Assembly (NCBI RefSeq): GCF_045679555.1
Contig: NC_092093.1
Coordinates: 67,291,214 to 67,355,213, forward strand
Direction of reading: 5' to 3'
Origin: Salvelinus alpinus
Lineage: Eukaryota > Chordata > Actinopteri > Salmoniformes > Salmonidae
Length of the DNA: 64,000 nt
Below, piece after piece: positions 1 to 32,687 of this stretch. The notes under the pieces are model-generated. The model saw nothing but the letters and a program-made list of their open reading frames with translations. It was not told where the DNA came from and did not search any database. Each line of letters starts with the position of its first letter. Within the stretch, counting starts at the first letter, position 1. The position numbers were made by a program, and so were the translations under genes.

Positions 1-312
1 TGAGACCGGTTGGAAGTACTGCCAAATTCTCTAAAACGACATTGGAGGTGGCTTATGGTAGAGAAAAGAACATTCAATTCTCTGGCCACAGCTCTGGTGG
101 ACATTCTTGCAGTCAGACTGAAAAGAAAGCTCTGCTGTTGGGAAAGCTTTATGTAGTGTCTAACTCTTTAAAGAATACATTCATTGCATTATAACGGTGA
201 CAAACGGTACTCACAATGTTGTATTGTGTTGTGTAATGGCTTTGTTGGCATGCATCAAAACTTTGTAAAAGTTTTTACCCCACCACGATGTATTTTTCTC
301 TGGTAAATAAGT

Positions 313-385
313 GATCCAGTGGCCTAATGGATAAGGCATCAGCCTCCGGAGCTGGGGATTGTGGGTTCAAGTCCCACCTGGGTCT
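313..385 (+). tRNA. tRNA-Arg(CCG)-like gene, array unit 1
   Basis: A full cloverleaf can be drawn: 7-bp acceptor GATCCAG/CTGGGTC (one T-G wobble), D arm GCCT/AGGC with GGA in the loop, anticodon arm TCAGC/GCTGG with loop CTCCGGA, and T arm GTGGG/CCCAC with loop TTCAAGT. Positions 34-36 read CCG, an Arg anticodon, and the Arg identity bases A20 and C35 are present. The A box (TGGCCTAATGG) and B box (GGTTCAAGTCC) fit Pol III promoters. No run of four or more T follows within ~50 bp, so termination looks weak. The apparent discriminator base is T, where Arg tRNAs usually have A or G. No CCA is encoded, as expected in eukaryotes. It could be a working gene or a recent pseudogene. Confidence 0.8.
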
Positions 386-926
386 ATTGAAAGCAGCTGA
401 GCATTAGATGAAAGAACAGATGGGAATTGGTTCTTTCTAAGATCTGCTTGCATGAATTTGTTAGCTTTAATTACTAAATTCCCAATTCCCTGATGCAAAG
501 AGTGAATTCCAAATAAATTAGGCATTATTTAATAGTAGGAGAAAAAAAAAGTGACAAGAATAGTGACAATTGGAACCCCTCTTCCAGATCATGACTAGAC
601 TGCAGCCCTGTACTTCACAAAACAAACTTCTATTTATTGTCTAAGCAAATTAAGAGCACGTCAAACTGTTTTAAATCAAAGCTTTATAAGTCATAAATAA
701 ATAAAAACATCTTCATAGTACTCCAATGACTCCAATAGATCTAGAGAATTAGTGCTGTGTGCGAGTCAGGACTCCTTTTTTTGTCAAATGTATTGTGACA
801 AACATGATTGTGAAACTACACGTTATAATAAATGTTGATTTGAATGTTGATTCATATTTGTGTGATGATAACAGTAGAATTGGTTTGTCTACTTGGATCC
901 TGCTGCTAGTGGCTGTTTTCTTTTAG

Positions 927-1082
927 CTTAGCTGTTAGTACATTGTTGTTGTTCTTGAGGCTGGCCAGTGAGGCAGCGTAGTCCACTAGTTTTCCAACAC
1001 TCCACTTGGAACAGAAGAACATGGGCAGGCTGGAGTCTTTGCCCTCTTTGGGAAGGAAGACATTGAAATAGGTCCTCTCTGT
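927..1082 (-). pseudogene. ZFAND1-like exon copy, array unit 1
   Basis: On the minus strand a 52-codon open segment reads TERTYFNVFLPKEGK, then MFFCSKWSVGK, then LVDYAASLASLKNNNN. This matches, from memory, the C-terminal ubiquitin-like region of ZFAND1 (human QTERIYFQVFLPKGSKEK and PMFFCHRWSIGKAIDFAA). ZFAND1 is an AN1 zinc-finger protein that recruits p97 and the proteasome to stress granules. A good 3' splice site (TTTTGTTTTCCAG) precedes the exon. The expected donor after LTAK is absent: AAG is followed by CT, not GT, and the frame runs on to a stop at 906. No other ZFAND1 exon is in the window, so this is a captured single exon and not a gene. A cryptic GTAC donor inside the exon is possible. 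Confidence 0.75.
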
Positions 1083-1208
1083 CTGGAAAACAAAATTAAT
1101 AAGATGTAGACTTGTATATAAAATATAATCAAATGCAAAACTCCCAAAAAGACACTGATTCTTTAAACCAGGGGAGTACATGTTTCCCCCCTCATTCTGA
1201 AATTACAT

Positions 1209-1341
1209 TTTTGTCCCCCCTAGTTGTATCATTGGAATGTGATACAAAACGAGGCTACGGAGAGCTTTAGGACCATGCGAACGCCTCCAAGCGGTCGGGT
1301 AGGCTGTTTGGAGTGTTTATCCAACTGGGGGGGGACAAATT
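1209..1341. repeat. G/C-run inverted repeat pair within the array unit (unit 1 shown)
   Basis: TTTTTGTCCCCCCTAGTTG at the left and CAACTGGGGGGGGACAAATT at the right form short inverted arms around ~95 bp. A further C-run (GTCCCCCCCACTTCG) follows at ~1351. Length of the G/C runs varies from unit to unit. The layout resembles a MITE-like insertion captured in the unit, and it is the site where unit 3 formed its long palindrome. Confidence 0.55.
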
Positions 1342-1649
1342 ATGATAGCTATGTCCCCCCCACTTCGAATAACAAAGTTGCACCCCTGCTTTATACTGTA
1401 TATAATGTATATTTAACACAATTGTCTGGAAAGCCTCAGTGTAGAATGGCATACAGTAAATAGTAGCTGCTGTTGTTAACAGCAAAGGAAAAAACAGCAT
1501 GAGGCATTATCTTGTTGGGTCATTACATTTTATATCACAACCCCAATTTATGAACAACTCCATCACAGTTCATGTCTACACCCTCAGACATACTTGATGT
1601 GCCCCATATGGCACCTTATTACTATATAGTTCACATCTTTTCAACAGAG

Positions 1650-1955
1650 ACCTTTTGGCCCTGGTCAAGGTCCAGCCAATCAGAATGAGTTTTTCCCTAC
1701 AAAAGGTCTTTATTACAGACAGAAATACTCCTCAGTTTCATCAGCTGCCCGGTTGGTGTGTCTCACACGATCCCGCAGGTGAAGAAGCTGGACGTGGATG
1801 TCCTGGGATGGCGTGGTTACACGTAGTCTGCGTATGTGAGACCGGTTGGAAGTACTGCCAAATTCTCTAAAACGACATTGGAGGTGGCTTATGGTAGAGA
1901 AAAGAACATTCAATTCTCTGGCCACAGCTCTGGTGGACATTCTTGCAGTCAGACT
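1650..1955 (-). mobile_element. Tc1/mariner remnant inside the array unit (unit 1 shown)
   Basis: The minus strand encodes a 75-residue open frame (1713-1940) that starts MSTRAVARELNV and ends ADETEEYFCL. This is the helix-turn-helix start of a Tc1 transposase fused to the usual terminus, the shape of an internally deleted, non-autonomous salmonid Tc1 family. No DDE catalytic segment and no terminal inverted repeats are left. Equivalent open frames lie at 3549-3776, 5494-5721, 7337-7564, 9182-9409, 11026-11253, 12871-13098, 14716-14943, 16559-16786, 18403-18630, 20248-20475, 22093-22320, 23937-24164, 25783-26010, 27626-27853, 29470-29697 and 31317-31556. A related fragment sits in an f13a1 intron near 53.9 kb. 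Confidence 0.8.
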
Positions 1956-2148
1956 GAAAAGAAAGCTCTGCTGTTGGGAAAGCTTTATGTAGTGTCTAAC
2001 TCTTTAAAGAATACATTCATTGCATTATAACGGTGACAAACGGTACTCACAATGTTGTATTGTGTTGTGTAATGGCTTTGTTGGCATGCATCAAAACTTT
2101 GTAAAAGTTTTTACCCCACCACGATGTATTTTTCTCTGGTAAATAAGT

Positions 2149-2221
2149 GATCCAGTGGCCTAATGGATAAGGCATCAGCCTCCGGAGCTGGGGATTGTGG
2201 GTTCAAGTCCCACCTGGGTCT
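2149..2221 (+). tRNA. tRNA-Arg(CCG)-like gene, array unit 2
   Basis: Identical to the unit 1 copy, with all four stems paired and anticodon CCG. Units 1 and 2 are nearly identical throughout and share the 1836-bp period. Confidence 0.8.
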
Positions 2222-2762
2222 ATTGAAAGCAGCTGAGCATTAGATGAAAGAACAGATGGGAATTGGTTCTTTCTAAGATCTGCTTGCATGAATTTGTTAG
2301 CTTTAATTACTAAATTCCCAATTCCCTGATGCAAAGAGTGAATTCCAAATAAATTAGGCATTATTTAATAGTAGGAGAAAAAAAAAGTGACAAGAATAGT
2401 GACAATTGGAACCCCTCTTCCAGATCATGACTAGACTGCAGCCCTGTACTTCACAAAACAAACTTCTATTTATTGTCTAAGCAAATTAAGAGCACGTCAA
2501 ACTGTTTTAAATCAAAGCTTTATAAGTCATAAATAAATAAAAACATCTTCATAGTACTCCAATGACTCCAATAGATCTAGAGAATTAGTGCTGTGTGCGA
2601 GTCAGGACTCCTTTTTTTGTCAAATGTATTGTGACAAACATGATTGTGAAACTACACGTTATAATAAATGTTGATTTGAATGTTGATTCATATTTGTGTG
2701 ATGATAACAGTAGAATTGGTTTGTCTACTTGGATCCTGCTGCTAGTGGCTGTTTTCTTTTAG

Positions 2763-2918
2763 CTTAGCTGTTAGTACATTGTTGTTGTTCTTGAGGCTGG
2801 CCAGTGAGGCAGCGTAGTCCACTAGTTTTCCAACACTCCACTTGGAACAGAAGAACATGGGCAGGCTGGAGTCTTTGCCCTCTTTGGGAAGGAAGACATT
2901 GAAATAGGTCCTCTCTGT
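2763..2918 (-). pseudogene. ZFAND1-like exon copy, array unit 2
   Basis: Identical in translation to the unit 1 copy. Acceptor present, donor absent. Confidence 0.72.
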
Positions 2919-3984
2919 CTGGAAAACAAAATTAATAAGATGTAGACTTGTATATAAAATATAATCAAATGCAAAACTCCCAAAAAGACACTGATTCTTT
3001 AAACCAGGGGAGTACATGTTTCCCCCCTCATTCTGAAATTACATTTTTGTCCCCCCTAGTTGTATCATTGGAATGTGATACAAAACGAGGCTACGGAGAG
3101 CTTTAGGACCATGCGAACGCCTCCAAGCGGTCGGGTAGGCTGTTTGGAGTGTTTATCCAACTGGGGGGGGACAAATTATGATAGCTATGTCCCCCCCACT
3201 TCGAATAACAAAGTTGCACCCCTGCTTTATACTGTATATAATGTATATTTAACACAATTGTCTGGAAAGCCTCAGTGTAGAATGGCATACAGTAAATAGT
3301 AGCTGCTGTTGTTAACAGCAAAGGAAAAAACAGCATGAGGCATTATCTTGTTGGGTCATTACATTTTATATCACAACCCCAATTTATGAACAACTCCATC
3401 ACAGTTCATGTCTACACCCTCAGACATACTTGATGTGCCCCATATGGCACCTTATTACTATATAGTTCACATCTTTTCAACAGAGACCTTTTGGCCCTGG
3501 TCAAGGTCCAGCCAATCAGAATGAGTTTTTCCCTACAAAAGGTCTTTATTACAGACAGAAATACTCCTCAGTTTCATCAGCTGCCCGGTTGGTGTGTCTC
3601 ACACGATCCCGCAGGTGAAGAAGCTGGACGTGGATGTCCTGGGATGGCGTGGTTACACGTAGTCTGCGTATGTGAGACCGGTTGGAAGTACTGCCAAATT
3701 CTCTAAAACGACATTGGAGGTGGCTTATGGTAGAGAAAAGAACATTCAATTCTCTGGCCACAGCTCTGGTGGACATTCTTGCAGTCAGACTGAAAAGAAA
3801 GCTCTGCTGTTGGGAAAGCTTTATGTAGTGTCTAACTCTTTAAAGAATACATTCATTGCATTATAACGGTGACAAACGGTACTCACAATGTTGTATTGTG
3901 TTGTGTAATGGCTTTGTTGGCATGCATCAAAACTTTGTAAAAGTTTTTACCCCACCACGATGTATTTTTCTCTGGTAAATAAGT

Positions 3985-4057
3985 GATCCAGTGGCCTAAT
4001 GGATAAGGCATCAGCCTCCGGAGCTGGGGATTGTGGGTTCAAGTCCCACCTGGGTCT
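3985..4057 (+). tRNA. tRNA-Arg(CCG)-like gene, array unit 3
   Basis: Same sequence and intact fold as unit 1. It lies ~940 bp upstream of the foldback palindrome found only in this unit. Confidence 0.8.
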
Positions 4058-4598
4058 ATTGAAAGCAGCTGAGCATTAGATGAAAGAACAGATGGGAATT
4101 GGTTCTTTCTAAGATCTGCTTGCATGAATTTGTTAGCTTTAATTACTAAATTCCCAATTCCCTAATGCAAAGAGTGAATTCCAAATAAATTAGGCATTAT
4201 TTAATAGTAGGAGAAAAAAAAAGTGACAAGAATAGTGACAATTGGAACCCCTCTTCCAGATCATGACTAGACTGCAGCCCTGTACTTCACAAAACAAACT
4301 TCTATTTATTGTCTAAGCAAATTAAGAGCACGTCAAACTGTTTTAAATCAAAGCTTTATAAGTCATAAATAAATAAAAACATCTTCATAGTACTCCAATG
4401 ACTCCAATAGATCTAGAGAATTAGTGCTGTGTGCGAGTCAGGACTCCTTTTTTTGTCAAATGTATTGTGACAAACATGATTGTGAAACTACACGTTATAA
4501 TAAATGTTGATTTGAATGTTGATTCATATTTGTGTGATGATAACAGTAGAATTGGTTTGTCTACTTGGATCCTGCTGCTAGTGGCTGTTTTCTTTTAG

Positions 4599-4754
4599 CT
4601 TAGCTGTTAGTACATTGTTGTTGTTCTTGAGGCTGGCCAGTGAGGCAGCGTAGTCCACTAGTTTTCCAACACTCCACTTGGAACAGAAGAACATGGGCAG
4701 GCTGGAGTCTTTGCCCTCTTTGGGAAGGAAGACATTGAAATAGGTCCTCTCTGT
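4599..4754 (-). pseudogene. ZFAND1-like exon copy, array unit 3
   Basis: Same translation as unit 1. One extra A in the upstream intron-like sequence shifts only the non-exonic frame. Confidence 0.72.
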
Positions 4755-4994
4755 CTGGAAAACAAAAATTAATAAGATGTAGACTTGTATATAAAATATA
4801 ATCAAATGCAAAACTCCCAAAAAGACACTGATTCTTTAAACCAGGGGAGTACATGTTTCCCCCCTCATTCTGAAATTACATTTTTGTCCCCCCTAGTTGT
4901 ATCATTGGAATGTGATACAAAACGAGGCTACGGAGAGCTTTAGGACCATGCGAACGCCTCCAAGCGGCCGGGTAGGCTGTTTGGAGTGTTTATC

Positions 4995-5256
4995 CAACAG
5001 CAGCTACTATTTACTGTATGCCATTCTACACTGAGGCTTTCCAGACAATTGTGTTAAATATACATTATATACAGTATAAAGCAGGGGTGCAACTTTGTTA
5101 TTCGAAGTGGGGGGGACATAGCTATCATAATTTGTCCCCCCCACTTCGAATAACAAAGTTGCACCCCTGCTTTATACTGTATATAATGTATATTTAACAC
5201 AATTGTCTGGAAAGCCTCAGTGTAGAATGGCATACAGTAAATAGTAGCTGCTGTTG
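4995..5256. repeat. Perfect foldback palindrome, 124-bp arms, array unit 3 only
   Basis: Left arm 4995-5118 and right arm 5133-5256 are exact reverse complements around a 14-bp spacer. The right arm is normal array sequence, and the left arm is an inverted copy of it in place of the usual G-run. This accounts for unit 3 being ~100 bp longer than its neighbours. It fits template switching between the short inverted G/C-run arms, though a local assembly error cannot be excluded. Confidence 0.95.
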
Positions 5257-5929
5257 TTAACAGCAAAGGAAAAAACAGCATGAGGCATTATCTTGTTGGG
5301 TCATTACATTTTATATCACAACCCCAATTTATGAACAACTCCATCACAGTTCATGTCTACACCCTCAGACATACTTGATGTGCCCCATATGGCACCTTAT
5401 TACTATATAGTTCACATCTTTTCAACAGAGACCTTTTGGCCCTGGTCAAGGTCCAGCCATTCAGAATGAGTTTTTCCCTACAAAAGGTCTTTATTACAGA
5501 CAGAAATACTCCTCAGTTTCATCAGCTGCCCGGTTGGTGTGTCTCACACGATCCCGCAGGTGAAGAAGCTGGACGTGGATGTCCTGGGATGGCGTGGTTA
5601 CACGTAGTCTGCGTATGTGAGACCGGTTGGAAGTACTGCCAAATTCTCTAAAACGACATTGGAGGTGGCTTATGGTAGAGAAAGGAACATTCAATTCTCT
5701 GGCCACAGCTCTGGTGGACATTCTTGCAGTCAGACTGAAAAGAAAGCTCTGCTGTTGGGAAAGCTTTATGTAGTGCCTAACTGTTTAAAGAATACATTCA
5801 TTGCATTATAACGGTGACAAACGGTACTCACAATGTTGTATTGTGTTGTGTAATGGCTTTGTTGGCATGCATCAAAACTTTGTAAAAGTTTTTACCCCAC
5901 CACGATGTATTTTTCTCTGGTAAATAAGT

Positions 5930-6002
5930 GATCCAGTGGCCTAATGGATAAGGCATCAGCCTCCGGAGCTGGGGATTGTGGGTTCAAGTCCCACCTGGGT
6001 CT
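5930..6002 (+). tRNA. tRNA-Arg(CCG)-like gene, array unit 4
   Basis: Intact cloverleaf identical to unit 1. The 3' flank has changed (GCATTAGATCAAAG in place of GCATTAGATGAAAG), a variant shared by all later units. Confidence 0.8.
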
Positions 6003-6551
6003 ATTGAAAGCAGCTGTGCATTAGATCAAAGAACAGATGGGAATTGGTTCTTTCTAAGATCTGCTTGCATAAATTTGTTAGCTTTAATCACTATCATTAC
6101 TAAATTCCCAATTCCCTGATGCAAAGAGTGAATTCCAAATAAATTTGGCATTATTTAATAGTAGGAGAAAAAAAAGTGACAAGAATAGTGACAATTGGAA
6201 CCCCTCTTCCAGATCATGACTAGACTGCAGCCCTGTACTTCACAAAACAAACTTCTATTTATTGTCTAAGCAAATTAAGAGCACGTCAAACTGTTTTAAA
6301 TCAAAGCTTTATAAGTCATAAATAAATAAAAACATCTTCATAGTACTCCAATGACTCCAATAGATCTAGAGAATTAGTGCTGTGTGCGAGTCAGGACTCC
6401 TTTTTTTGTCAAATGTATTGTGACAAACATGATTGTGAAACTACACGTTATAATAAATGTTGATTTGAATGTTGATTCATATTTGTGTGATGATAACAGT
6501 AGAATTGGTTTGTCTACTTGGATCCTGCTGCTAGTGGCTGTTTTCTTTTAG

Positions 6552-6707
6552 CTTAGCTGTTAGTACATTGTTGTTGTTCTTGAGGCTGGCCAGTGAGGCA
6601 GCGTAGTCCACTAGTTTTCCAACACTCCACTTGGAACAGAAGAACATGGGCAGGCTGGAGTCTTTGCCCTCTTTGGGAAGGAAGACATTGAAATAGGTCC
6701 TCTCTGT
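6552..6707 (-). pseudogene. ZFAND1-like exon copy, array unit 4
   Basis: Same translation as unit 1. Acceptor present, donor absent. Confidence 0.72.
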
Positions 6708-7772
6708 CTGGAAAACAAAAATTAATAAGATGTAGACTTGTATATAAAATATAATCAAATGCAAAACTCCCAAAAAGACACTGATTCTTTAAACCAGGGG
6801 AGTACATGTTTCCCCCCTCATTCTGAAATTACATTTTTGTCCCCCCTAGTTGTATCATTGGAATGTGATACAAAACGAGGCTACGGAGAGCTTTAGGACC
6901 ATGCGAACGCCTCCAAGCGGTCGGGTAGGCTGTTTGGAGTGTTTATCCAACTGGGGGGGAAAATTATGATAGCTATGTCCCCCCCACTTCGAATAACAAA
7001 GTTGCACCCCTGCTTTATACTGTATATAATGTATATTTAACACAATTGTCTGGAAAGCCTCAGTGTAGAATGGCATACAGTAAATAGTAGCTGCTGTTGT
7101 TAACAGCAAAGGAAAAAACAGCATGAGGCATTATCTTGTTGGGTCATTACATTTTATATCACAACCCCAATTTATGAACAACTCCATCACAGTTCATGTC
7201 TACACCCTCAGACATACTTGATGTGCCCCATATGGCACCTTATTACTATATAGTTCACATCTTTTCAACAGAGACCTTTTGGCCCTGGTCAAGGTCCAGC
7301 CAATCAGAATGAGTTTTTCCCTACAAAAGGTCTTTATTACAGACAGAAATACTCCTCAGTTTCATCAGCTGCCCGGTTGGTGTGTCTCACACGATCCCGC
7401 AGGTGAAGAAGCTGGACGTGGATGTCCTGGGATGGCGTGGTTACACGTAGTCTGCGTATTTGAGACCGGTTGGAAGTACTGCCAAATTCTCTAAAACGAC
7501 ATTGGAGGTGGCTTATGGTAGAGAAAGGAACATTCAATTCTCTGGCTACAGCTCTGGTGGACATTCTTGCAGTCAGACTGAAAAGAAAGCTCTGCTGTTG
7601 GGAAAGCTTTATGTAGTGCCTAACTGTTTAAAGAATACATTCATTGCATTATAACGGTGACAAACGGTACTCACAATATTGTATTGTGTTGTGTAATGGC
7701 TTTGTTGGCATGCATCAAAACTTTGTAAAAGTTTTTACCCCACCACGATGTATTTTTCTCTGGTAAATAAGT

Positions 7773-7845
7773 GATCCAGTGGCCTAATGGATAAGGCATC
7801 AGCCTCCGGAGCTGGGGATTGTGGGTTCAAGTCCCACCTGGGTCT
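7773..7845 (+). tRNA. tRNA-Arg(CCG)-like gene, array unit 5
   Basis: Intact cloverleaf, anticodon CCG. This unit shares rare variants elsewhere with unit 10, 9.22 kb (five units) away. Confidence 0.8.
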
Positions 7846-8394
7846 ATTGAAAGCAGCTGTGCATTAGATCAAAGAACAGATGGGATTTGGTTCTTTCTAA
7901 GATCTGCTTGCATGAATTTGTTAGCTTTAATCACTATCATTACTAAATTCCCAATTCCCTGATGCAAAGAGTGAATTCCAAATAAATTATCCATTATTTA
8001 ATAGTAGGAGAAGAAAAAGTGACAAGAATAGTGACAATTGGAACCCCTCTTCCAGATCATGACTAGACTGCAGCCCTGTACTTCACAAAACAAACTTCTA
8101 TTTATTGTCTAAGCAAATTAAGAGCACGTCAAACTGTTTTAAATCAAAGCTTTATAAGTCATAAATAAATAAAAACATCTTCATAGTACTCCAATGACTC
8201 CAATAGATCTAGAGAATTAGTGCTGTATGCGAGTCAGGACTCCTTTTTTTGTCAAATGTATTGTGACAAACATGATTGTGAAACTACACGTTATAATAAA
8301 TGTTGATTTGAATTTTGATTCATATTTGTGTGATGATAACAGTAGAATTGGTTTGTCTACTTGGATCCTGCTGCTAGTGGCTGTTTTCTTTTAG

Positions 8395-8550
8395 CTTAGC
8401 TGTTAGTACATTGTTGTTGTTCTTGAGGCTGGCCAGTGAGGCAGCGTAGTCCACTAGTTTTCCAACACTCCACTTGGAACAGAAGAACATGGGCAGGCTG
8501 GAGTCTTTGCCCTCTTTGGGAAGGAAGACATTGAAATAGGTCCTCTCTGT
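8395..8550 (-). pseudogene. ZFAND1-like exon copy, array unit 5
   Basis: Same translation as unit 1. Acceptor present, donor absent. Confidence 0.72.
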
Positions 8551-9617
8551 CTGGAAAACAAAAATTAATAAGATGTAGACTTGTATACAAAATATAATCA
8601 AATGCAAAACTCCCAAAAAGACACTGATTCTTTAAACCAGGGGAGTACATGTTTCCCCCCTCATTCTGAAATTACATTTTTGTCTCCCCTAGTTGTATCA
8701 TTGGAATGTGATACAAAACGAGGCTACGGAGAGCTTTAGGACCATGCGAACGCCTCCAAGCGGTCGGGTAGGCTGTTTGGAGTGTTTATCCAACTGGGGG
8801 GGAAAAAATTATGATAGCTATGTCCCCCCCACTTCGAATAACAAAGTTGCACCCCTGCTTTATACTGTATATAATGTATATTTAACACAATTGTCTGGAA
8901 AGCCTCAGTGTATAATGGCATACAGAAAATAGTAGCTGCTGTTGTTAACAGCAAAGGAAAAAACAGCATGAGGCATTATCTTGTTGGGTCATTACATTTT
9001 ATATCACAACCCCAATTTATGAACAACTCCATCACAGTTCATGTCTACACCCTCAGACATACTTGATGTGCCCCATATGGCACCTTATTACTATATAGTT
9101 CACATCTTTTCAACAGAGACCTTTTGGCCCTGGTCAAGGTCCAGCCAATTAGAATGAGTTTTTCCCTACAAAAGGTCTTTATTACAGACAGAAATACTCC
9201 TCAGTTTCATCAGCTGCCCGGTTGGTGTGTCTCACACGATCCCGCAGGTGAAGAAGCTGGACGTGGATGTCCTGGGATGGCGTGGTTACACGTAGTCTGC
9301 GTATGTGAGACCGGTTGGAAGTACTGCCAAATTCTCTAAAACGACATTGGAGGTGGCTTATGGTAGAGAAAATAACATTCAATTCTCTGGCCACAGCTCT
9401 GGTGGACATTCTTGCAGTCAGACTGAAAAGAAAGCTCTGCTGTTGGGAAAGCTTTATGTAGTGCCTAACTGTTTAAAGAATACATGCATTGCATTATAAC
9501 GGTGACAAACGGTACTCACAATGTTGTATTGTGTTGTGTAATGGCTTTGTTGGCATGCATCAAAACTTTGTAAAAGTTTTTACCCCACCACGATGTATTT
9601 TTCTCTGGTAAATAAGT

Positions 9618-9690
9618 GATCCAGTGGCCTAATGGATAAGGCATCAGCCTCCGGAGCTGGGGATTGTGGATTCAAGTCCCACCTGGGTCT
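9618..9690 (+). tRNA. tRNA-Arg(CCG)-like, T-stem variant, array unit 6
   Basis: As unit 1 except that the last G of the 5' T-stem strand is A (GTGGA facing CCCAC). This loses the pair next to the T loop and alters the B box. Probably weakened or non-functional. Confidence 0.6.
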
Positions 9691-10239
9691 ATTGAAAGCA
9701 GCTGTGCATTAGATCAAAGAACAGATGGGATTTGGTTCTTTCTAAGATCTGCTTGCATGAATTTGTTAGCTTTAATCACTATCATTACTAAATTCCCAAT
9801 TCCCTGATGCAAAGAGTGAATTCCAAATAAATTATCCATTATTTAATAGTAGGAGAAAAAAAAGTGACAAGAATAGTGACAATTGGAACCCCTCTTCCAG
9901 ATCATGACTAGACTGCAGCCCTGTACTTCACAAAACAAACTTCTATTTATTGTCTAAGCAAATTAAGAGCACGTCAAACTGTTTTAAATCAAAGCTTTAT
10001 AAGTCATAAATAAATAAAAACATCTTCATAGTACTCCAATGACTCCAATAGATCTAGAGAATTAGTGCTGTGTGCGAGTCAGGACTCCTTTTTTTGTCAA
10101 ATGTATTGTGACAAACATGATTGTGAAACTACACGTTATAATAAATGTTGATTTGAATGTTGATTCATATTTGTGTGATGATAACAGTAGAATTGGTTTG
10201 TCTACTTGGATCCTGCTGCTAGTGGCTGTTTTCTTTTAG

Positions 10240-10395
10240 CTTAGCTGTTAGTACATTGTTGTTGTTCTTGAGGCTGGCCAGTGAGGCAGCGTAGTCCACT
10301 AGTTTTCCAACACTCCACTTGGAACAGAAGAACATGGGCAGGCTGGAGTCTTTGCCCTCTTTGGGAAGGAAGACATTGAAATAGGTACTCTCTGT
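10240..10395 (-). pseudogene. ZFAND1-like exon copy, array unit 6
   Basis: As unit 1 with one replacement near the start (TESTYF in place of TERTYF). Confidence 0.72.
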
Positions 10396-11462: not shown

Positions 11463-11535
11463 GATCCAGTGGCCTAATGGATAAGGCATCAGCCTCCGGA
11501 GCTGGGTATTGTGGGTTCAAGTCCAACCTGGGTCT
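11463..11535 (+). tRNA. tRNA-Arg(CCG)-like, CCAAC T-stem class, array unit 7
   Basis: Variable loop GTATT in place of GGATT, and 3' T-stem strand CCAAC in place of CCCAC, which breaks one T-stem pair. The 5' flank also changes from CTCTGGTAAATAAG to CTAAGGGTAAAAAAG. Units 7, 8, 11, 12 and 14 share the whole linked haplotype. Confidence 0.55.
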
Positions 11536-13307: not shown

Positions 13308-13380
13308 GATCCAGTGGCCTAATGGATAAGGCATCAGCCTCCGGAGCTGGGTATTGTGGGTTCAAGTCCAACCTGGGTCT
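13308..13380 (+). tRNA. tRNA-Arg(CCG)-like, CCAAC T-stem class, array unit 8
   Basis: Same variant haplotype as unit 7: one broken T-stem pair and a changed variable loop, with anticodon CCG kept. Confidence 0.55.
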
Positions 13381-15151: not shown

Positions 15152-15224
15152 GATCCAGTGGCCTAATGGATAAGGCATCAGCCTCCGGAGCTGGGGATTG
15201 TGGGTTCAAGTCCCACCTCGGTCT
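15152..15224 (+). tRNA. tRNA-Arg(CCG)-like, acceptor-mismatch class, array unit 9
   Basis: The 3' acceptor strand reads CTCGGTC in place of CTGGGTC, giving a C-C mismatch in the middle of the acceptor stem. Anticodon and T arms are intact. Units 9, 13, 15, 16 and 17 share this change. Confidence 0.55.
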
Positions 15225-16994: not shown

Positions 16995-17067
16995 GATCCA
17001 GTGGCCTAATGGATAAGGCATCAGCCTCCGGAGCTGGGGATTGTGGGTTCAAGTCCCACCTGGGTCT
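16995..17067 (+). tRNA. tRNA-Arg(CCG)-like gene, array unit 10
   Basis: Intact cloverleaf identical to unit 1, anticodon CCG. It is the only fully paired copy after unit 5. Confidence 0.8.
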
Positions 17068-18839: not shown

Positions 18840-18912
18840 GATCCAGTGGCCTAATGGATAAGGCATCAGCCTCCGGAGCTGGGTATTGTGGGTTCAAGTC
18901 CAACCTGGGTCT
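18840..18912 (+). tRNA. tRNA-Arg(CCG)-like, CCAAC T-stem class, array unit 11
   Basis: Same linked haplotype as unit 7, with one broken T-stem pair and the altered 5' flank. Confidence 0.55.
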
Positions 18913-20684: not shown

Positions 20685-20757
20685 GATCCAGTGGCCTAAT
20701 GGATAAGGCATCAGCCTCCGGAGCTGGGTATTGTGGGTTCAAGTCCAACCTGGGTCT
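20685..20757 (+). tRNA. tRNA-Arg(CCG)-like, CCAAC T-stem class, array unit 12
   Basis: Same linked haplotype as unit 7, with one broken T-stem pair and the altered 5' flank. Confidence 0.55.
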
Positions 20758-22528: not shown

Positions 22529-22601
22529 GATCCAGTGGCCTAATGGATAAGGCATCAGCCTCCGGAGCTGGGGATTGTGGGTTCAAGTCCCACCTCGGTC
22601 T
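22529..22601 (+). tRNA. tRNA-Arg(CCG)-like, acceptor-mismatch class, array unit 13
   Basis: CTCGGTC acceptor strand as in unit 9, which lies 7377 bp (four units) upstream. Confidence 0.55.
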
Positions 22602-23150
22602 ATTGAAAGCAGCTGTGCATTAGATCAAAGAACAGATGGGAATTGGTTCTTTCTAAGATCTGCTTGCATGAATTTGTTAGCTTTAATCACTATCATTACT
22701 AAATTCCCAATTCCCTGATGCAAAGAGTGAATTCCAAATAAATTTGGCATTATTTAATAGTAGGAGAAAAAAAAGTGAGAAGAATAGTGACAATTGGAAC
22801 CCCTCTTCCAGATCTTGACTAGACTGCAGCCCTGTACTTCACAAAACAAACTTCTATTTATTGTCTAAGCAAATTAAGAGCACGTCAAACTGTTTTAAAT
22901 CAAAGCTTTATAAGTCATAAATAAATAAAAACATCTTCATAGTACTCCAATGACTCCAATAGATCTAGAGAATTAGTGCTGTGTGCGAGTCAGGACTCCT
23001 TTTTTTGTCAAATGTATTGTGACAAACATGATTGTGTAACTACACGTTATAATAAATGTTGATTTGAATGTTGATTCATATTTGTGTGATGATAACAGTA
23101 GAATTGGTTTGTCTACTTGGATCCTGCTGCTAGTGGCTGTTTTCTTTTAG

Positions 23151-23306
23151 CTTAGCTGTTAGTACATTGTTGTTGTTCTTGAGGCTGGCCAGTGAGGCAG
23201 CGTAGTCCACTAGTTTTCCAACACTCCACTTGGAACAGAAGAAGATGGGCAGGCTGGAGTCTTTGCCCTCTTTGGGAAGGAAGACATTGAAATAGGTCCT
23301 CTCTGT
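23151..23306 (-). pseudogene. ZFAND1-like exon copy, array unit 13
   Basis: Met to Ile variant, identical to unit 9, which lies exactly 7377 bp upstream. Confidence 0.72.
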
Positions 23307-24373
23307 CTGGAAAACAAAATTAATAAGATGTAGACTTGTATATAAAATATAATCAAATGCAAAACTCCCAAAAAGACACTGATTCTTTAAACCAGGGGAG
23401 TACATGTTTCCCCCCTCATTCTGAAATTACATTTTTGTCCCCCCTAGTTGTATCATTGGAATGTGATACAAAACGAGGCTACGGAGAGCTTTAGGACCAT
23501 GCGAACGCCTCCAAGCGGTCGGGTAGGCTGTTTGGAGTGTTTATCCAACTGAGGGGGAAACAATTATGATAGCTATGTCCCCCCCACTTCGAATAACAAA
23601 GTTGCACCCCTGCTTTATACTGTATATAATGTATATTTAACACAATTGTCTGGAAAGCCTCAGTGTAGAATGGCATACAGTAAATAGTAGCTGCTGTTGT
23701 TAACAGCAAAGGAAAAAACAGCATGAGGCATTATCTTGTTGGGTCATTACATTTTATATCACAACCCCAATTTATGAACAACTCCATCACAGTTCATGTC
23801 TACACCCTCAGACATACTTGATGTGCCCCATATGGCACCTTATTACTATATAGTTCACATCTTTTCAACAGAGACCTTTTGGCCCTGGTCAAGGTCCAGC
23901 CAATTAGAATGAGTTTTTCCCTACAAAAGGTCTTTATTACAGACAGAAATACTCCTCAGTTTCATCAGCTGCCCGGTTGGTGGGTCTCACACGATCCCGC
24001 AGGTGAAGAAGCTGGACGTGGATGTCCTGGGATGGCGTGGTTACACGTAGTCTGCGTATGTGAGACCGGTTGGAAGTACTGCCAAATTCTCTAAAACGAC
24101 ATTGGAGGTGGCTTATGGTAGAGAAAAGAACATTCAATTCTCTGGCCACAGCTCTGGTGGACATTCTTGCAGTCAGACTGAAAAGAAAGCTCTGCTGTTG
24201 GGAAAGCTTTATGTAGTGCCTAACTGTTTAAAGAATACATTCATTGCATTATAACGGTGACAAACGGTACTCACAATGTTGTATTGTGTTGTGTAATGGC
24301 TTTGTTGGCATGCATCAAAACTTTGTAAAAGTTTTTACCCCACCACGATGTATTTTTCTAAGGGTAAAAAAGT

Positions 24374-24446
24374 GATCCAGTGGCCTAATGGATAAGGCAT
24401 CAGCCTCCGGAGCTGGGTATTGTGGGTTCAAGTCCAACCTGGGTCT
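24374..24446 (+). tRNA. tRNA-Arg(CCG)-like, CCAAC T-stem class, array unit 14
   Basis: Same linked haplotype as unit 7. This is its last occurrence in the array. Confidence 0.55.
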
Positions 24447-24995
24447 ATTGAAAGCAGCTGTGCATTAGATCAAAGAACAGATGGGAATTGGTTCCTTCTA
24501 AGATCTGCTTGCATGAATTTGTTAGCTTTAATCACTATCATTACTAAATTCCCAATTCCCTGATGCAAAGAGTGAATTCCAAATAAATTAGGCATTATTT
24601 AATAGTAGGAGAAAAAAAAGTGACAAGAATAGTGACAATTGGAACCCCTCTTCCAGATCATGACTAGACTGCAGCCCTGTACTTCACAAAACAAACTTCT
24701 ATTTATTGTCTAAGCAAATTAAGAGCACGTCAAACTGTTTTAAATCAAAGCTTTATAAGTCATAAATAAATAAAAACATCTTCATAGTACTCCAATGACT
24801 CCAATAGATCTAGAGAATTAGTGCTGTGTGCGAGTCAGGACTCCTTTTTTTGTCAAATGTATTGTGACAAACATGATTGTGAAACTACACGTTATAATAA
24901 ATGTTGATTTGAATGTTGATTCATATTTGTGTGATGATAACAGTAGAATTGGTTTGTCTACTTGGATCCTGCTGCTAGTGGCTGTTTTCTTTTAG

Positions 24996-25151
24996 CTTAG
25001 CTGTTAGTACATTGTTGTTGTTCTTGAGGCTGGCCAGTGAGGCAGCGTAGTCCACTAGTTTTCCAACACTCCACTTGGAACAGAAGAACATGGGCAGGCT
25101 GGAGTCTTTGCCCTCTTTGGGAAGGAAGACATTGAAATAGGTCCTCTCTGT
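24996..25151 (-). pseudogene. ZFAND1-like exon copy, array unit 14
   Basis: Same translation as unit 1. Confidence 0.72.
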
Positions 25152-26218
25152 CTGGAAAACAAAAATTAATAAGATGTAGACTTGTATATAAAATATAATC
25201 AAATGCAAAACTCCCAAAAAGACACTGATTCTTTAAACCAGGGGAGTACATGTTTCCCCCCTCATTCTGAAATTACATTTTTGTCCCCCCTAGTTGTATC
25301 ATTGGAATGTGATACAAAACGAGGCTACGGAGAGCTTTAGGACCATGCGAACGCCTCCAAGCGGTCGGGTAGGCTGTTTGGAGTGTTTATCCAACTGGGG
25401 GGGAAAAAATTATGATAGCTATGTCCCCCCCACTTCGAATAACAAAGTTGCACCCCTGCTTTATACTGTATATAATGTATATTTAACACAATTGTCTGGA
25501 AAGCCTCAGTGTATAATGGCATACAGAAAATAGTAGCTGCTGTTGTTAACAGAAAAGGAAAAAACAGCATGAGGCATTATCTTGTTGGGTCATTACATTT
25601 TATATCACAACCCCAATTTATGAACAACTCCATCACAGTTCATGTCTACACCCTCAGACATACTTGATAATCCCCATATGGCACCTTATTACTATATAGT
25701 TCACATCTTTTCAACAGAGACCTTTTGGCCCTGGTCAAGGTCCAGCCAATCAGAATGAGTTTTTCCCTACAAAAGGTCTTTATTACAGACAGAAATACTC
25801 CTCAGTTTCATCAGCTGCCCGGTTGGTGTGTCTCACACGATCCCGCAGGTGAAGAAGCTGGACGTGGATGTCCTGGGATGGCGTGGTTACACGTAGTCTG
25901 CGTATGTGAGACCGGTTGGAAGTACTGCCAAATTCTCTAAAACGACATTGGAGGTGGCTTATGGTAGAGAAAAGAACATTCAATTCTCTGGCCACAGCTC
26001 TGGTGGACATTCTTGCAGTCAGACTGAAAAGAAAGCTCTGCTGTTGGGAAAGCTTTATGTAGTGCCTAACTGTTTAAAGAATACATTCATTGCATTATAA
26101 CGGTGACAAACGGTACTCACAATGTTGTATTGTGTTGTGTAATGGCTTTGTTGGCATGCATCAAAACTTTGTAAAAGTTTTTACCCCACCACGATGTATT
26201 TTTCTCTGGTAAATAAGT

Positions 26219-26290
26219 GATCCAGTGGCCTAATGGATAAGGCATCAGCCTCGGAGCTGGGGATTGTGGGTTCAAGTCCCACCTCGGTCT
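26219..26290 (+). pseudogene. tRNA-Arg pseudogene, anticodon-loop deletion, array unit 15
   Basis: One base is missing from the anticodon loop (CTCGGA, six bases, in place of CTCCGGA), and the acceptor carries the CTCGGTC mismatch. A six-base loop cannot present CCG normally, so this copy is very probably dead. Confidence 0.7.
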
Positions 26291-26839
26291 ATTGAAAGCA
26301 GCTGTGCATTAGATCAAAGAACAGATGGGAATTGGTTCTTTCTAAGATCTGCTTGCATGAATTTGTTAGCTTTAATCACTATCATTACTAAATTCCCAAT
26401 TCCCTGATGCAAAGAGTGAATTCCAAATAAATTTGGCATTATTTAATAGTAGGAGAAAAAAAAGTGACAAGAATAGTGACAATTGGAACCCCTCTTCCAG
26501 ATCATGACTAGACTGCAGCCCTGTACTTCACAAAACAAACTTCTATTTATTGTCTAAGCAAATTAAGAGCACGTCAAACTGTTTTAAATCAAAGCTTTAT
26601 AAGTCATAAATAAATAAAAACATCTTCATAGTACTCCAATGACTCCAATAGATCTAGAGAATTAGTGCTGTGTGCGAGTCGGGACTCCTTTTTTTGTCAA
26701 ATGTATTGTGACAAACATGATTGTGTAACTACACGTTATAATAAATGTTGATTTGAATGTTGATTCATATTTGTGTGATGATAACAGTAGAATTGGTTTG
26801 TCTACTTGGATCCTGCTGCTAGTGGCTGTTTTCTTTTAG

Positions 26840-26995
26840 CTTAGCTGTTAGTACATTGTTGTTGTTCTTGAGGCTGGCCAGTGAGGCAGCGTAGTCCACT
26901 AGTTTTCCAACAATCCACTTGGAACAGAAGAAGATGGGCAGGCTGGAGTCTTTGCCCTCTTTGGGAAGGAAGACATTGAAATAGGTCCTCTCTGT
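26840..26995 (-). pseudogene. ZFAND1-like exon copy, array unit 15
   Basis: Carries the Met to Ile variant plus a Ser to Ile change (KWIVGK in place of KWSVGK). Confidence 0.72.
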
Positions 26996-28061
26996 CTGGA
27001 AAACAAAATTAATAAGATGTAGACTTGTATATAAAATATAATCAAATGCAAAACTCCCAAAAAGACACTGATTCTTTAAACCAGGGGAGTACATGTTTCC
27101 CCCCTCATTCTGAAATTACATTTTTGTCCCCCCTAGTTGTATCATTGGAATGTGATACAAAACGAGGCTACGGAGAGCTTTAGGACCATGCGAACGCCTC
27201 CAAGCGGTCGGGTAGGCTGTTTGGAGTGTTTATCCAACTGAGGGGGAAACAATTATGATAGCTATGTCCCCCCCACTTCGAATAACAAAGTTGCACCCCT
27301 GCTTTATACTGTATATAATGTATATTTAACACAATTGTCTGGAAAGCCTCAGTGTAGAATGGCATACAGTAAATAGTAGCTGCTGTTGTTAACAGCAAAG
27401 GAAAAAACAGCATGAGGCATTATCTTGTTGGGTCATTACATTTTATATCACAACCCCAATTTATGAACAACTCCATCACAGTTCATGTCTACACCCTCAG
27501 ACATACTTGATGTGCCCCATATGGCACCTTATTACTATATAGTTCACATCTTTTCAACAGAGACCTTTTGGCCCTGGTCAAGGTCCAGCCAATTAGAATG
27601 AGTTTTTCCCTACAAAAGGTCTTTATTACAGACAGAAATACTCCTCAGTTTCATCAGCTGCCCGGTTGGTGGGTCTCACACGATCCCGCAGGTGAAGAAG
27701 CTGGACGTGGATGTCCTGGGATGGCGTGGTTACACGTAGTCTGCGTATGTGAGACCGGTTGGAAGTACTGCCAAATTCTCTAAAACGACATTGGAGGTGG
27801 CTTATGGTAGAGAAAATAACATTCAATTCTCTGGCCACAGCTCTGGTGGACATTCTTGCAGTCAGACTGAAAAGAAAGCTCTGCTGTTGGGAAAGCTTTA
27901 TGTAGTGCCTAACTGTTTAAAGAATACATTCATTGCATTATAACTGTGACAAACGGTACTCACAATGTTGTATTGTGTTGTGTAATGGCTTTGTTGGCAT
28001 GCATCAAAACTTTGTAAAAGTTTTTACCCCACCACGATGTATTTTTCTCTGGTAAATAAGT

Positions 28062-28134
28062 GATCCAGTGGCCTAATGGATAAGGCATCAGCCTCCGGAG
28101 CTGGGGATTGTGGGTTCAAGTCCCACCTCGGTCT
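28062..28134 (+). tRNA. tRNA-Arg(CCG)-like, acceptor-mismatch class, array unit 16
   Basis: CTCGGTC acceptor strand with one mismatch; otherwise intact, anticodon CCG. Confidence 0.55.
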
Positions 28135-28683
28135 ATTGAAAGCAGCTGTGCATTAGATCAAAGAACAGATGGGAATTGGTTCTTTCTAAGATCTGCTTGC
28201 ATGAATTTGTTAGCTTTAATCACTATCATTACTAAATTCCCAATTCCCTGATGCAAAGAGTGAATTCCAAATAAATTAGCCATTATTTAATAGTAGGAGA
28301 AAAAAAAGTGACAAGAATAGTGACAATTGGAACCCCTCTTCCAGATCATGACTAGACTGCAGCCCTGTACTTCACAAAACAAACTTCTATTTATTGTCTA
28401 AGCAAATTAAGAGCACGTCAAACTGTTTTAAATCAAAGCTTTATAAGTCATAAATAAATAAAAACATCTTCATAGTACTCCAATGACTCCAATAGATCTA
28501 GAGAATTAGTGCTGTGTGCGAGTCAGGACTCCTTTTTTTGTCAAATGTATTGTGACAAACATGATTGTGAAACTACACGTTATAATAAATGTTGATTTGA
28601 ATGTTGATTCATATTTGTGTGATGATAACAGTAGAATTGGTTTGTCTACTTGGATCCTGCTGCTAGTGGCTGTTTTCTTTTAG

Positions 28684-28839
28684 CTTAGCTGTTAGTACAT
28701 TGTTGTTGTTCTTGAGGCTGGCCAGTGAGGCAGCGTAGTCCACTAGTTTTCCAACACTCCACTTGGAACAGAAGAACATGGGCAGGCTGGAGTCTTTGCC
28801 CTCTTTGGGAAGGAAGACATTGAAATAGGTCCTCTCTGT
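28684..28839 (-). pseudogene. ZFAND1-like exon copy, array unit 16
   Basis: Same translation as unit 1. Confidence 0.72.
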
Positions 28840-29905
28840 CTGGAAAACAAAATTAATAAGATGTAGACTTGTATATAAAATATAATCAAATGCAAAACTC
28901 CCAAAAAGACACTGATTCTTTAAACCAGGGGAGTACATGTTTCCCCCCTCATTCTGAAATTACATTTTTGTCCCCCCTAGTTGTATCATTGGAATGTGAT
29001 ACAAAACGAGGCTACGGAGAGCTTTAGGACCATGCGAACGCCTCCAAGCGGTCGGGTAGGCTGTTTGGAGTGTTTATCCAACTGAGGGGGAAACAATTAT
29101 GATAGCTATGTCCCCCCCACTTCGAATAACAAAGTTGCACCCCTGCTTTATACTGTATATAATGTATATTTAACACAATTGTCTGGAAAGCCTCAGTGTA
29201 GAATGGCATACAGTAAATAGTAGCTGCTGTTGTTAACAGCAAAGGAAAAAACAGCATGAGGCATTATCTTGTTGGGTCATTACATTTTATATCACAACCC
29301 CAATTTATGAACAACTCCATCACAGTTCATGTCTACACCCTCAGACATACTTGATGTGCCCCATATGGCACCTTATTACTATATAGTTCACATCTTTTCA
29401 ACAGAGACCTTTTGGCCCTGGTCAAGGTCCAGCCAATTAGAATGAGTTTTTCCCTACAAAAGGTCTTTATTACAGACAGAAATACTCCTCAGTTTCATCA
29501 GCTGCCCGGTTGGTGTGTCTCACACGATCCCGCAGGTGAAGAAGCTGGACGTGGATGTCCTGGGATGGCGTGGTTACACGTAGTCTGCGTATGTGAGACC
29601 GGTTGGAAGTACTGCCAAATTCTCTAAAACGACATTGGAGGTGGCTTATGGTAGAGAAAATAACATTCAATTCTCTGGCCACAGCTCTGGTGGACATTCT
29701 TGCAGTCAGACTGAAAAGAAAGCTCTGCTGTTGGGAAAGCTTTATGTAGTGCCTAACTGTTTAAAGAATACATTCATTGCATTATAACGGTGACAAACGG
29801 TACTCACAATGTTGTATTGTGTTGTGTAATGGCTTTGTTGGCATGCATCAAAACTTTGTAAAAGTTTTTACCCCACCACGATGTATTTTTCTCTGGTAAA
29901 TAAGT

Positions 29906-29978
29906 GATCCAGTGGCCTAATGGATAAGGCATCAGCCTCCGGAGCTGGGGATTGTGGGTTCAAGTCCCACCTCGGTCT
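29906..29978 (+). tRNA. tRNA-Arg(CCG)-like, acceptor-mismatch class, array unit 17
   Basis: CTCGGTC acceptor strand with one mismatch; otherwise intact, anticodon CCG. Confidence 0.55.
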
Positions 29979-30527
29979 ATTGAAAGCAGCTGTGCATTAG
30001 ATCAAAGAACAGATGGGAATTGGTTCTTTCTAAGATCTGCTTGCATGAATTTGTTAGCTTTAATCACTATCATTACTAAATTCCCAATTCCCTGATGCAA
30101 AGAGTGAATTCCAAATAAATTTGGCATTATTTAATAGTAGGAGAAAAAAAAGTGACAAGAATAGTGACAATTGGAACCCCTCTTCCAGATCATGAATAGA
30201 CTGCAGCCCTGTACTTCACAAAACAAACTTCTATTTATTGTCTAAGCAAATTAAGAGCACGTCAAACTGTTTTAAATCAAAGCTTTATAAGTCATAAATA
30301 AATAAAAACATCTTCATAGTACTCCAATGACTCCAATAGATCTAGAGAATTAGTGCTGTGTGCGAGTCAGGACTCCTTTTTTTGTCAAATGTATTGTGAC
30401 AAACATGATTGTGTAACTACACGTTATAATAAATGTTGATTTGAATGTTGATTCATATTTGTGTGATGATAACAGTAGAATTGGTTTGTCTACTTGGATC
30501 CTGCTGCTAGTGGCTGTTTTCTTTTAG

Positions 30528-30683
30528 CTTAGCTGTTAGTACATTGTTGTTGTTCTTGAGGCTGGCCAGTGAGGCAGCGTAGTCCACTAGTTTTCCAACA
30601 CTCCACTTGGAACAGAAGAACATGGGCAGGCTGGAGTCTTTGCCCTCTTTGGGAAGGAAGACATTGAAATAGGTCCTCTCTGT
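30528..30683 (-). pseudogene. ZFAND1-like exon copy, array unit 17
   Basis: Same translation as unit 1. Confidence 0.72.
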
Positions 30684-31752
30684 CTGGAAAACAAAATTAA
30701 TAAGATGTAGACTTGTATATAAAATATAATCAAATGCAAAACTCCCAAAAAGACACTGATTCTTTAAACCAGGGGAGTACATGTTTCCCCCCTCATTCTG
30801 AAATTACATTTTTGTCCCCCCTAGTTGTATCATTGGAATGTGATACAAAACGAGGCTACGGAGAGCTTTAGGACCATGCGAACGCCTCCAAGCGGTCGGG
30901 TAGGCTGTTTGGAGTGTTTATCCAACTGAGGGGGAAAAAATAATAATGATAATTATGTCCCCCCCACTTCGAATAACAAAGTTGCACCCCTGCTTTATTC
31001 TGTATATAATGTATTTTTCAACACAATTGGCTGGAAAGCCTCAGTGTAGAATGGCATACAGTGTAAGTAGCTGCTGTTGTTAACAGCAAAGGAAAAAACA
31101 GCATGAGGCATTATCTTGTTGGGTCATTACATTATATATCACAACCCCAATTTATGAACAACTCCATCACAGTTCATGTCTACACCCTCAGACATACTTG
31201 ATGTGCCCCATATGGCACCTTATTACTATATAGTTCACATCTTTTCAACAGAGACCTTTTGGCCCTGGTCAAGGTCCAGCCAATCAGAATTAGTTTTTCC
31301 CTACAAAAGGTCTTTATTACAGACAGAAATACTCCTCAGTTTCATCAGCTGCCCTGTTGGTGGGTCTCACACGATCCCACAGGTGAAGAAGCTGGACGTG
31401 GAGGTTCTGGGATGGTGTGGTTACACGTAGTCTGCGTATGTGAGACCGGTTGGAAGTACTGCCAAATTCTCTAAAACGACATTGGAGGTGGCTTATGGTA
31501 GAGAAAGGAACATTCAATTCTCTGGCCACAGCTCTGGTGGACATTGTTGCAGTCAAACTGAAAAGAAAGCTCTGCTGTTGGGAAAGCTTTATGTAGTGCC
31601 TAACTGTTTAAAGAATACATTCATTGCATTATAACGGTGACAACCGGTACTCACAATGTTGTATTGTGTTGTGTAATGGCTTTGTTGGCATGCATCAAAA
31701 CTTTGTAAAAGTTTTTACCCCACCACAATCTATTTTTCTCTGGTAAATAAGT

Positions 31753-31825
31753 GGTCCAGTGGCCTAATGGATAAGCCACCAGCCTCTGGAGCTGGGGATT
31801 GTAGGTTCAAGTCCCACCTGGGTCT
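31753..31825 (+). pseudogene. Diverged tRNA-Arg-derived copy with CTG anticodon, array unit 18
   Basis: The most diverged copy. The acceptor begins GGTCCAG, the D-stem 3' strand is AGCC (one mismatch), the anticodon stem is CCAGC/GCTGG (better paired than elsewhere), the loop is CTCTGGA, and the T-stem is GTAGG. Positions 34-36 read CTG, a Gln anticodon, so the Arg identity base C35 is lost. It could be an old pseudogene or an anticodon-switched copy. The paired D- and T-stem defects favour a pseudogene. Confidence 0.5.
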
Positions 31826-32369
31826 ATTGAAAGCAGCTGTGCATTAGATCAAAGAACAGATGGAAATTGGTTCTTTCTAAGATCTGCTTGCATTAATTTG
31901 TTAGCTTTAATCACTATCATTACTACATTCCCAATTCCCTGATGCAAAGAGTGAATTCCAAATAAATTAGGCATTATTTAATAGTAGGAGAAAAAAAAGT
32001 GACCAGAATAGTGACAATTGGAACCCCTCTTCCAGATCATGACTAGACTGAAGCCCTGTACTTCACAAAACAAACTTCTATTTATTGTCTAAGCAAATTA
32101 AGAGCATGTCAAACTGTTTTAAATCAAAGCTTTATAAGTCATAAATAAATAAAAACATCTTCATAGTACTCCAATGACTCCAATAGATCTAGAGAATTAG
32201 TGCTGTGTGCGAGTCAGGACTCCTTTATTTGTCAAATGTATTGTGACAAACATGATTGTGAAACTACACGTTATAATAAATGTTGATTTGAATGTTGATT
32301 CATATTTGTATTATGATAACAGTAGAACAGGTTTGTCTACTTGGAGCCTGCTGCTAGTGGCTGTTTTCT

Positions 32370-32525
32370 TTTAGCTGTTAGTACATTGTTGTTGTTCTTG
32401 AGGCTGGCCAGTGAGGCAGCGTAGTCCACTAGTTTTCCAACACTCCACTTGGAACAGAAGAACATGGGCAGGCTGGAGTCTTTGCCCTCTTTGGGAAGTA
32501 AGACATTGAAATAGGTCCTCTCTGT
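32370..32525 (-). pseudogene. ZFAND1-like exon copy, array unit 18 (diverged)
   Basis: Diverged copy next to the assembly gap. It carries a base change in the PKEGK region and a short deletion at the 3' edge (TTTTAGCTGTTAG in place of TTTTAGCTTAGCTGTTAG). The lower boundary is approximate. The acceptor lies just before the N gap. Confidence 0.65.
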
Positions 32526-32545
32526 CTGGAAAACAAAATTAATAA

Positions 32546-32645: not shown

Positions 32646-32687
32646 AATGTGACATCATGAGGATGTCACATTTCAACATGTGATACC
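32646..32687 (-). repeat. Fragment of the ACATGTG-rich inverted-repeat element
   Basis: Short stretch with TGACATC and ATGTGA motifs. It appears to continue at 33475 once the inserted 781-bp element is removed, because the flanks share the 6-bp repeat GATACC. Confidence 0.45.

Follow-up and report, generated by a model that had tools for sequence, protein, structure and literature searches.

Which process would join a tRNA gene, an exon of a host gene and a piece of a transposon in one unit and then repeat that unit head to tail, and does the product serve the fish that carries it? The question is raised by a stretch of 64,000 nucleotides from Salvelinus alpinus (C8:67,291,214-67,355,213, where C8 denotes contig NC_092093.1; hereafter the window), which opens within a tandem array of ~1.84-kb units, and it was addressed in a single assembly of 2.37 Gb and 928 contigs. 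A previous sequence-only reading had described each unit as a tRNA-Arg(CCG)-like gene on the plus strand joined to a ZFAND1-like exon with its acceptor and a truncated Tc1 transposon, both on the minus strand, a combination for which it knew no precedent. Our analysis indicates that the array probably arose by tandem amplification of what remained of a degenerate ZFAND1 paralogue, and that it has no specific function that selection would keep; that paralogue is most likely the second of two copies that a whole-genome duplication produced.

The window proved to hold a true array of macrosatellite type, in which homogeneous units, each longer than the ~1 kb expected at minimum of such elements, follow one another head to tail. 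Twenty-four units, 23 complete and one cut, extend over C8:67,279,790-67,323,758; their spacing within the window is 1836-1945 bp, and their lengths across the whole array are 1831-1945 bp (the last unit being cut), with 97.8-99.8% identity to the consensus. Both ends had been thought to be cut off; the left border lies in ungapped sequence, six units (U1-U6) to the left of the window, where 80 kb contain no N, whereas the right end does stop at a 100-N assembly gap (C8:67,323,759), and a candidate for that border lies elsewhere. All 24 full-length genome matches to the non-transposon part of the unit fell within this one array, 40 of 1613 candidates having been scored, such that weaker or missed copies are possible. 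On this ground an identity as a short interspersed element or other dispersed tRNA-derived repeat was rejected, and the earlier proviso that the unit might be a known dispersed repeat fell away.

Along the plus strand the unit consists of a Tc1-like fragment, a flank, the tRNA, a second flank, the ZFAND1 3' untranslated region (3'UTR) and penultimate exon (both in minus orientation), a partial intron, a second dispersed repeat and a linker. The tRNA and the exon were both confirmed; in the window, ARAGORN and Rfam each detected a single tRNA in every one of the 18 units, always on the plus strand and with A and B boxes (ARAGORN assigned 16 of them to Arg(CCG)), and the exon sequence occurs once in each of the 18 window units, its consensus scoring 41.9 bits for Pfam UBL_ZFAND1 (cut-off 27). 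The penultimate exon, with its acceptor, the stop and the 3'UTR are kept, but the coding part of the last exon is deleted and the splice donor is absent from all 23 units read (the exon anchors did not capture U12, although its exon is present at window position 10370), and no unit holds a complete gene with all exons and splice sites. The transposon piece is likewise present, with many dispersed copies (88-91% identical over its first part), whereas its name stands less firmly: helix-turn-helix matches were sub-threshold only, and the fragment is presumably Tc1.

A whole ZFAND1 gene lies at C10:34,688,239-34,698,242, where tblastn with a human ZFAND1 sequence gave pieces ordered from residue 1 to 267; pieces of the C10 gene itself score for Pfam zf-AN1 and UBL_ZFAND1. 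Its parts stand in the order of the unit: penultimate exon, 3'UTR, and a decayed antisense tRNA-Arg, which lies ~0.5 kb past the ZFAND1 stop on the opposite strand and has 79% identity with the array tRNA across 67 bases; neither ARAGORN nor Rfam called this relic. Since a tRNA thus stands beside the C10 ZFAND1 tail too, the arrangement is shared. Of 28 candidates in the genome, 26 match the ZFAND1 C-terminus, 24 of them being exons of the array and the other two exons on C10, and a further ZFAND1 relic, with exon 6, 3'UTR and tRNA, lies at C8:87.75 Mb.

The correspondence with C10 extends outside the units. The left flank of the array (C8:67,268,556-67,278,840) is colinear over ~10 kb with C10:34,699,024-34,712,223, which lies past the C10 tRNA; the 10 non-overlapping matches have 71-87% identity and show the same inversion as the units (31 of 62 matches entered this comparison, and in all flank comparisons matches in repeat-rich stretches were filtered out). 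A prolactin-releasing-peptide-like sequence is found on both, with 82% agreement across 78 residues (of the two, the C10 copy was the one tested against Pfam). With the piece at C8:87.75 Mb, this flank forms a colinear paralogous block with C10. Colinearity of the right flank with C10 was rejected, the matches there being scattered and many of them repeat-like. The same order of parts at C10 and the colinear left flank therefore identify the unit as the tail of a degenerate ZFAND1 paralogue with its neighbouring tRNA; the combination of parts no longer lacks an explanation, since the neighbours of the intact C10 gene, and their order, are the same.

We propose that a single tail of the ZFAND1 paralogue, together with the tRNA, was first duplicated in tandem, and that unequal crossing over or gene conversion would then have increased the number of such units and homogenised them; each unit has lost the coding part of the last exon and gained pieces of two dispersed repeats. 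Homogenisation of this kind would leave inner units near-identical and edge units divergent. Identity to the consensus is lowest at the edges (U24 97.8%, U1 97.9%, U23 98.8%; all others 99.1-99.8%), and U7 with U8, as well as U13 with U14, are 100.0% identical. A shorter donor region is common to U1 and U24, at opposite ends of the array, and none of the 21 inner complete units that were read has it; the unit tree, branch supports left aside, groups for example U13, U14, U17, U18 and U20, and joins U6 to U9. The edge divergence, the shared donor region and the tree groups fit unequal crossing over or gene conversion. One unit, U9 (window 3673-5617), is longer through an inverted copy of ~161 bp of the unit.

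All 24 array tRNAs score above the Rfam cut-off, and eight of them equal the consensus, keeping all stem pairs and the CCG anticodon (62 bits where scanned with Rfam). The other 16 are damaged. In 14 of them one stem pair is mismatched; U21, which the stem-pair check skipped, has a deletion in its anticodon loop, and U24 combines a CTG anticodon with two mismatched stem pairs. Among the units the tRNA is not conserved above its surroundings; nucleotide diversity (pi) is 0.0216 for the tRNA versus 0.0114 for the unit (23 complete units), and in 85% of 1771 overlapping 73-bp windows the variable sites are as few as in the tRNA or fewer. A close RNA polymerase III (Pol III) terminator is lacking, with no run of four T (T4) within 283 nt downstream of the tRNA in any of the 24 units and the first one at 283-393 nt. 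Because the last coding exon and the donor are lost, most tRNAs are damaged and no less variable than the unit, and T4 is so distant, a working function for the array is unlikely; the earlier suggestions of tRNA dosage, an insulator or antisense transcripts were not supported, the tRNA being without extra conservation among the units. The founder tRNA was probably intact, most copies having decayed since, and some weak Pol III transcription of the array may occur at the intact tRNAs.

Table 1. Features of the array within the window (positions are those of the window).
Feature	Unit	Position	Strand	Remark
Tandem array		1..32545	+	U7-U23 complete (17 units), U24 for 1105 bp; U1-U6 left of window
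Assembly gap (100 N)		32546..32645		terminates array on right
ZFAND1 penultimate exon fragment	U7	924..1082	-	53 codons; acceptor kept, donor lost
ZFAND1 exon anchors	U8-U24	2893, 4729, 6682, 8525, 10370, 12215, 14060, 15904, 17747, 19592, 21437, 23281, 25126, 26970, 28814, 30658, 32500	-	
ZFAND1 stop and 3'UTR remnant	U7	564..773	-	recurs in each unit
Second dispersed repeat	U7	1173..1393		~220 bp; copies elsewhere 82-86% identical
Tc1-like fragment	U7/U8	1668..1952	-	~285 bp; unit boundary is an arbitrary phase
tRNA-Arg(CCG)	U7	313..385	+	all stems paired
tRNA-Arg(CCG)	U8	2149..2221	+	all stems paired
tRNA-Arg(CCG)	U9	3985..4057	+	all stems paired
tRNA-Arg(CCG)	U10	5930..6002	+	all stems paired
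tRNA-Arg(CCG)	U11	7773..7845	+	all stems paired
tRNA-Arg(CCG)	U12	9618..9690	+	T-stem mismatch, B box altered too
tRNA-Arg(CCG)	U13	11463..11535	+	T-stem mismatch
tRNA-Arg(CCG)	U14	13308..13380	+	T-stem mismatch
tRNA-Arg(CCG)	U15	15152..15224	+	acceptor-stem mismatch
tRNA-Arg(CCG)	U16	16995..17067	+	all stems paired
tRNA-Arg(CCG)	U17	18840..18912	+	T-stem mismatch
tRNA-Arg(CCG)	U18	20685..20757	+	T-stem mismatch
tRNA-Arg(CCG)	U19	22529..22601	+	acceptor-stem mismatch
tRNA-Arg(CCG)	U20	24374..24446	+	T-stem mismatch
tRNA	U21	26219..26290	+	one base missing from anticodon loop; truncated anticodon in ARAGORN
tRNA-Arg(CCG)	U22	28062..28134	+	acceptor-stem mismatch
tRNA-Arg(CCG)	U23	29906..29978	+	acceptor-stem mismatch
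tRNA	U24	31753..31825	+	anticodon CTG (Gln in ARAGORN), two stem mismatches

Several observations weigh against a relic without function, or against its proposed source. The whole-genome duplication is read from one colinear block and from the 2.37-Gb genome; the remaining points concern the tRNA and bear on the rival that survives best, namely that the array is kept for tRNA-Arg(CCG), its copy number being the dose and the ZFAND1 and transposon parts passengers, which we judge unlikely. Of 25 genome matches to a broad pattern of Arg-type D arm plus CCG anticodon, 22 lie in the array (the remaining three are at C8:66.30, C8:87.75 and C11:69.48 Mb), and a second Arg body pattern had ACG in 20 of 20 matches and CCG in none, genes fitting neither pattern being missed by these counts. 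One third of the array copies (8/24) are perfect. The distance to T4 is not decisive either, as other tRNA-Arg repeats in the genome likewise lack a near terminator; on C11 the first T4 stands ~71 to 160 nt downstream (~85 nt or more for the tRNA-Arg(TCT) repeats, ~71 nt for the CCG gene there). Finally, a lone tRNA-Arg(CCG) at C8:66,299,803-66,299,872 (63 bits) equals the array tRNA at 70 of 70 bases, an identity which also fits selection or conversion and which points to conservation at earlier times, opposite to the variation among units; it is from this identity that the founder tRNA appears to have been intact, unless conversion occurred.

The same lone copy counts against the array as a necessary supply. 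Beyond the tRNA it agrees with the array at 11 of the next 13 bases and then no longer, and the flanks differ; it has a run of five T after 15 nt, and its trailer, AATCGGCTTGTTTTT, is common to the C10 relic. As judged from these features, it is a candidate for a working gene, and the array lineage seems to have lost the ancestral terminator. The lone copy and the C11 copy (66.9 bits) could suffice, abundant tRNA-Arg(TCG) may read CGG codons by the general wobble rule, and the damage, undiminished variability and lack of a near T4 run described above also argue against a supply role. In a fuller form of the supply explanation, the array would be the species' main tRNA-Arg(CCG) store, with copy number setting CGG-decoding capacity and conversion renewing intact units at a pace that outstrips their decay; because the ancestral terminator was lost, long precursors would run antisense through the ZFAND1 3'UTR remnant and possibly affect expression of the intact ZFAND1 gene. 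We regard this fuller form, too, as unlikely.

A chromatin boundary, in which TFIIIC on the repeated B boxes, or CTCF, would make the array an insulator or heterochromatin block, is very improbable. All 23 scored units (U21 is not among them) have an unaltered A box, and all but U3 and U12, 21 of the 23, have an unaltered B-box core, but with so few variable sites these counts are weak evidence. A human tRNA repeat binds CTCF (PMC4041453); in the array, CTCF-like matches were not above chance (24 versus a mean of 16.8, reached in 6 of 100 shuffles), 14 of them being a single weak site, with two mismatches, that recurs in 14 of the 18 window units, and CTCF sites were accordingly rejected. Nor is f13a1 established as a neighbour. 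The GC content of the array is 0.399, and the ratio of observed to expected CpG (CpG o/e) is 0.323 in its window part, lower than the 0.403 of the right flank and the 0.455 obtained over 30 kb of C10; a low ratio would fit methylation, of which it is a weak sign. Least probable of all is an artefact in which the assembler multiplied or collapsed units, for although two pairs of units are identical and the array stops at a gap whose far flank is present twice in the assembly, the units differ by distinct substitutions and by length in an ordered pattern, and the 80 kb to the left of the window are free of N.

The right end calls for a separate account, since the array had been placed beside f13a1. 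A factor XIII A-like exon does occur in the window, beyond the 100-N gap, and also matches C8:83,485,271 (100%), 83,427,984 (98%) and 67,387,608 (91%). The right flank (window 32646-39757) recurs at C8:83.50-83.51 Mb with 97-99.5% identity over ~7 kb; the match stops 13 bases short of a further 100-N gap, which is followed by an unrelated repeat with a period of 379 bp. With a gap intervening and the same flank present again, the placement beside f13a1 is not established; the two flanks, each at or within 13 bases of a gap, represent either a retained haplotype or a recent duplication. Just right of the array's gap are tandem repeats of 34 and 48 bp (window 32911-33249 and 33749-34099), and further right are a long open frame with 27-bp repeats (59653-60618) and open frames that we take to encode Tc1-like transposases (60938-62051).

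The best candidate for the right border lies at C8:87.75 Mb. Here C10-like upstream sequence, ZFAND1 exon 6, 3'UTR and tRNA (C8:87.7366-87.7509 Mb) are accompanied by short pieces like unit positions 240-284 (93%), 551-598 (90%; C10 also matches part of this, at 85%) and 1123-1158 (83%), and then by a gap at 87,750,940-87,751,039. Among the 12 matches listed to C10, seven keep one order up to the gap, the others being out of order or past the gap. The sequence of U24 ends near unit position 1111, and the stretch at 87.75 Mb starts at about 1121-1123, in the right orientation and ~12 bases on; were the 20.4 Mb from one gap to the other inverted, array, edge copy, exon 6 and upstream region would stand in the C10 order. 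The case is circumstantial, as the piece that makes the join is AT-rich, 36 bp long and 83% identical. Since the array ends at a gap and its best border candidate lies 20.4 Mb away at another, a mis-oriented scaffold or a real inversion across C8:67.32-87.75 Mb is likely, the former being the simpler reading because both ends are gaps.

Of known systems, the human tRNA variable number tandem repeat at 1q23.3 comes nearest; it has a GC-rich 7.3-kb unit with several tRNA types and 9-43 units per allele, is bound by CTCF, and has tRNAs conserved to mouse (PMC4041453). It resembles our array in its kilobase head-to-tail units, tRNA genes in each and single locus; unlike it, the array is not GC- or CpG-rich and has no clear CTCF site, its 1.84-kb unit (40% GC, CpG o/e 0.32) carrying one mostly damaged tRNA and a host-gene remnant. 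The Arabidopsis tRNA Ser/Tyr (SYY) cluster also consists of tandem tRNA genes that may be mostly silent, but is from a plant and has other tRNA types (PMC12308677). Large tDNA clusters are reported in teleosts (PMC2888827) and resemble, as tandem tRNA genes in a fish genome, three arrays seen here by pattern and coordinates: tRNA-Arg(TCG) at C25:16.09-16.15 Mb (spacing often 358 bp), tRNA-Arg(TCT) at C11:69.42-69.48 Mb (~629 bp) and tRNA-Arg(ACG) at C2:13.27-13.28 Mb (~668 bp). These differ from the array on C8 in spacing, and no host-gene exon is known in them, unit content having been looked at in 2.9 kb on C11. Among exon-bearing macrosatellites, D4Z4 likewise has gene-derived sequence in every tandem unit, but carries an expressible open reading frame, whereas the array exon is without donor and the rest of its gene. 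No literature was found that joins salmonids and macrosatellites, and the related literature found, judged by title and the start of the abstract, does not describe the array; within these searches, a tandem array made from a dead gene duplicate and its antisense tRNA is new, while tandem tRNA repeats as such are known.

The likely orientation error or large inversion means that claims about the neighbours of the array need care. With only three other tRNA-Arg(CCG) places found, the genome offers a clean test of tRNA supply by an array of this kind. Together, these data illustrate, in a concrete case, how a satellite-like array may form from the tail of a duplicate gene in decay and the tRNA beside it.

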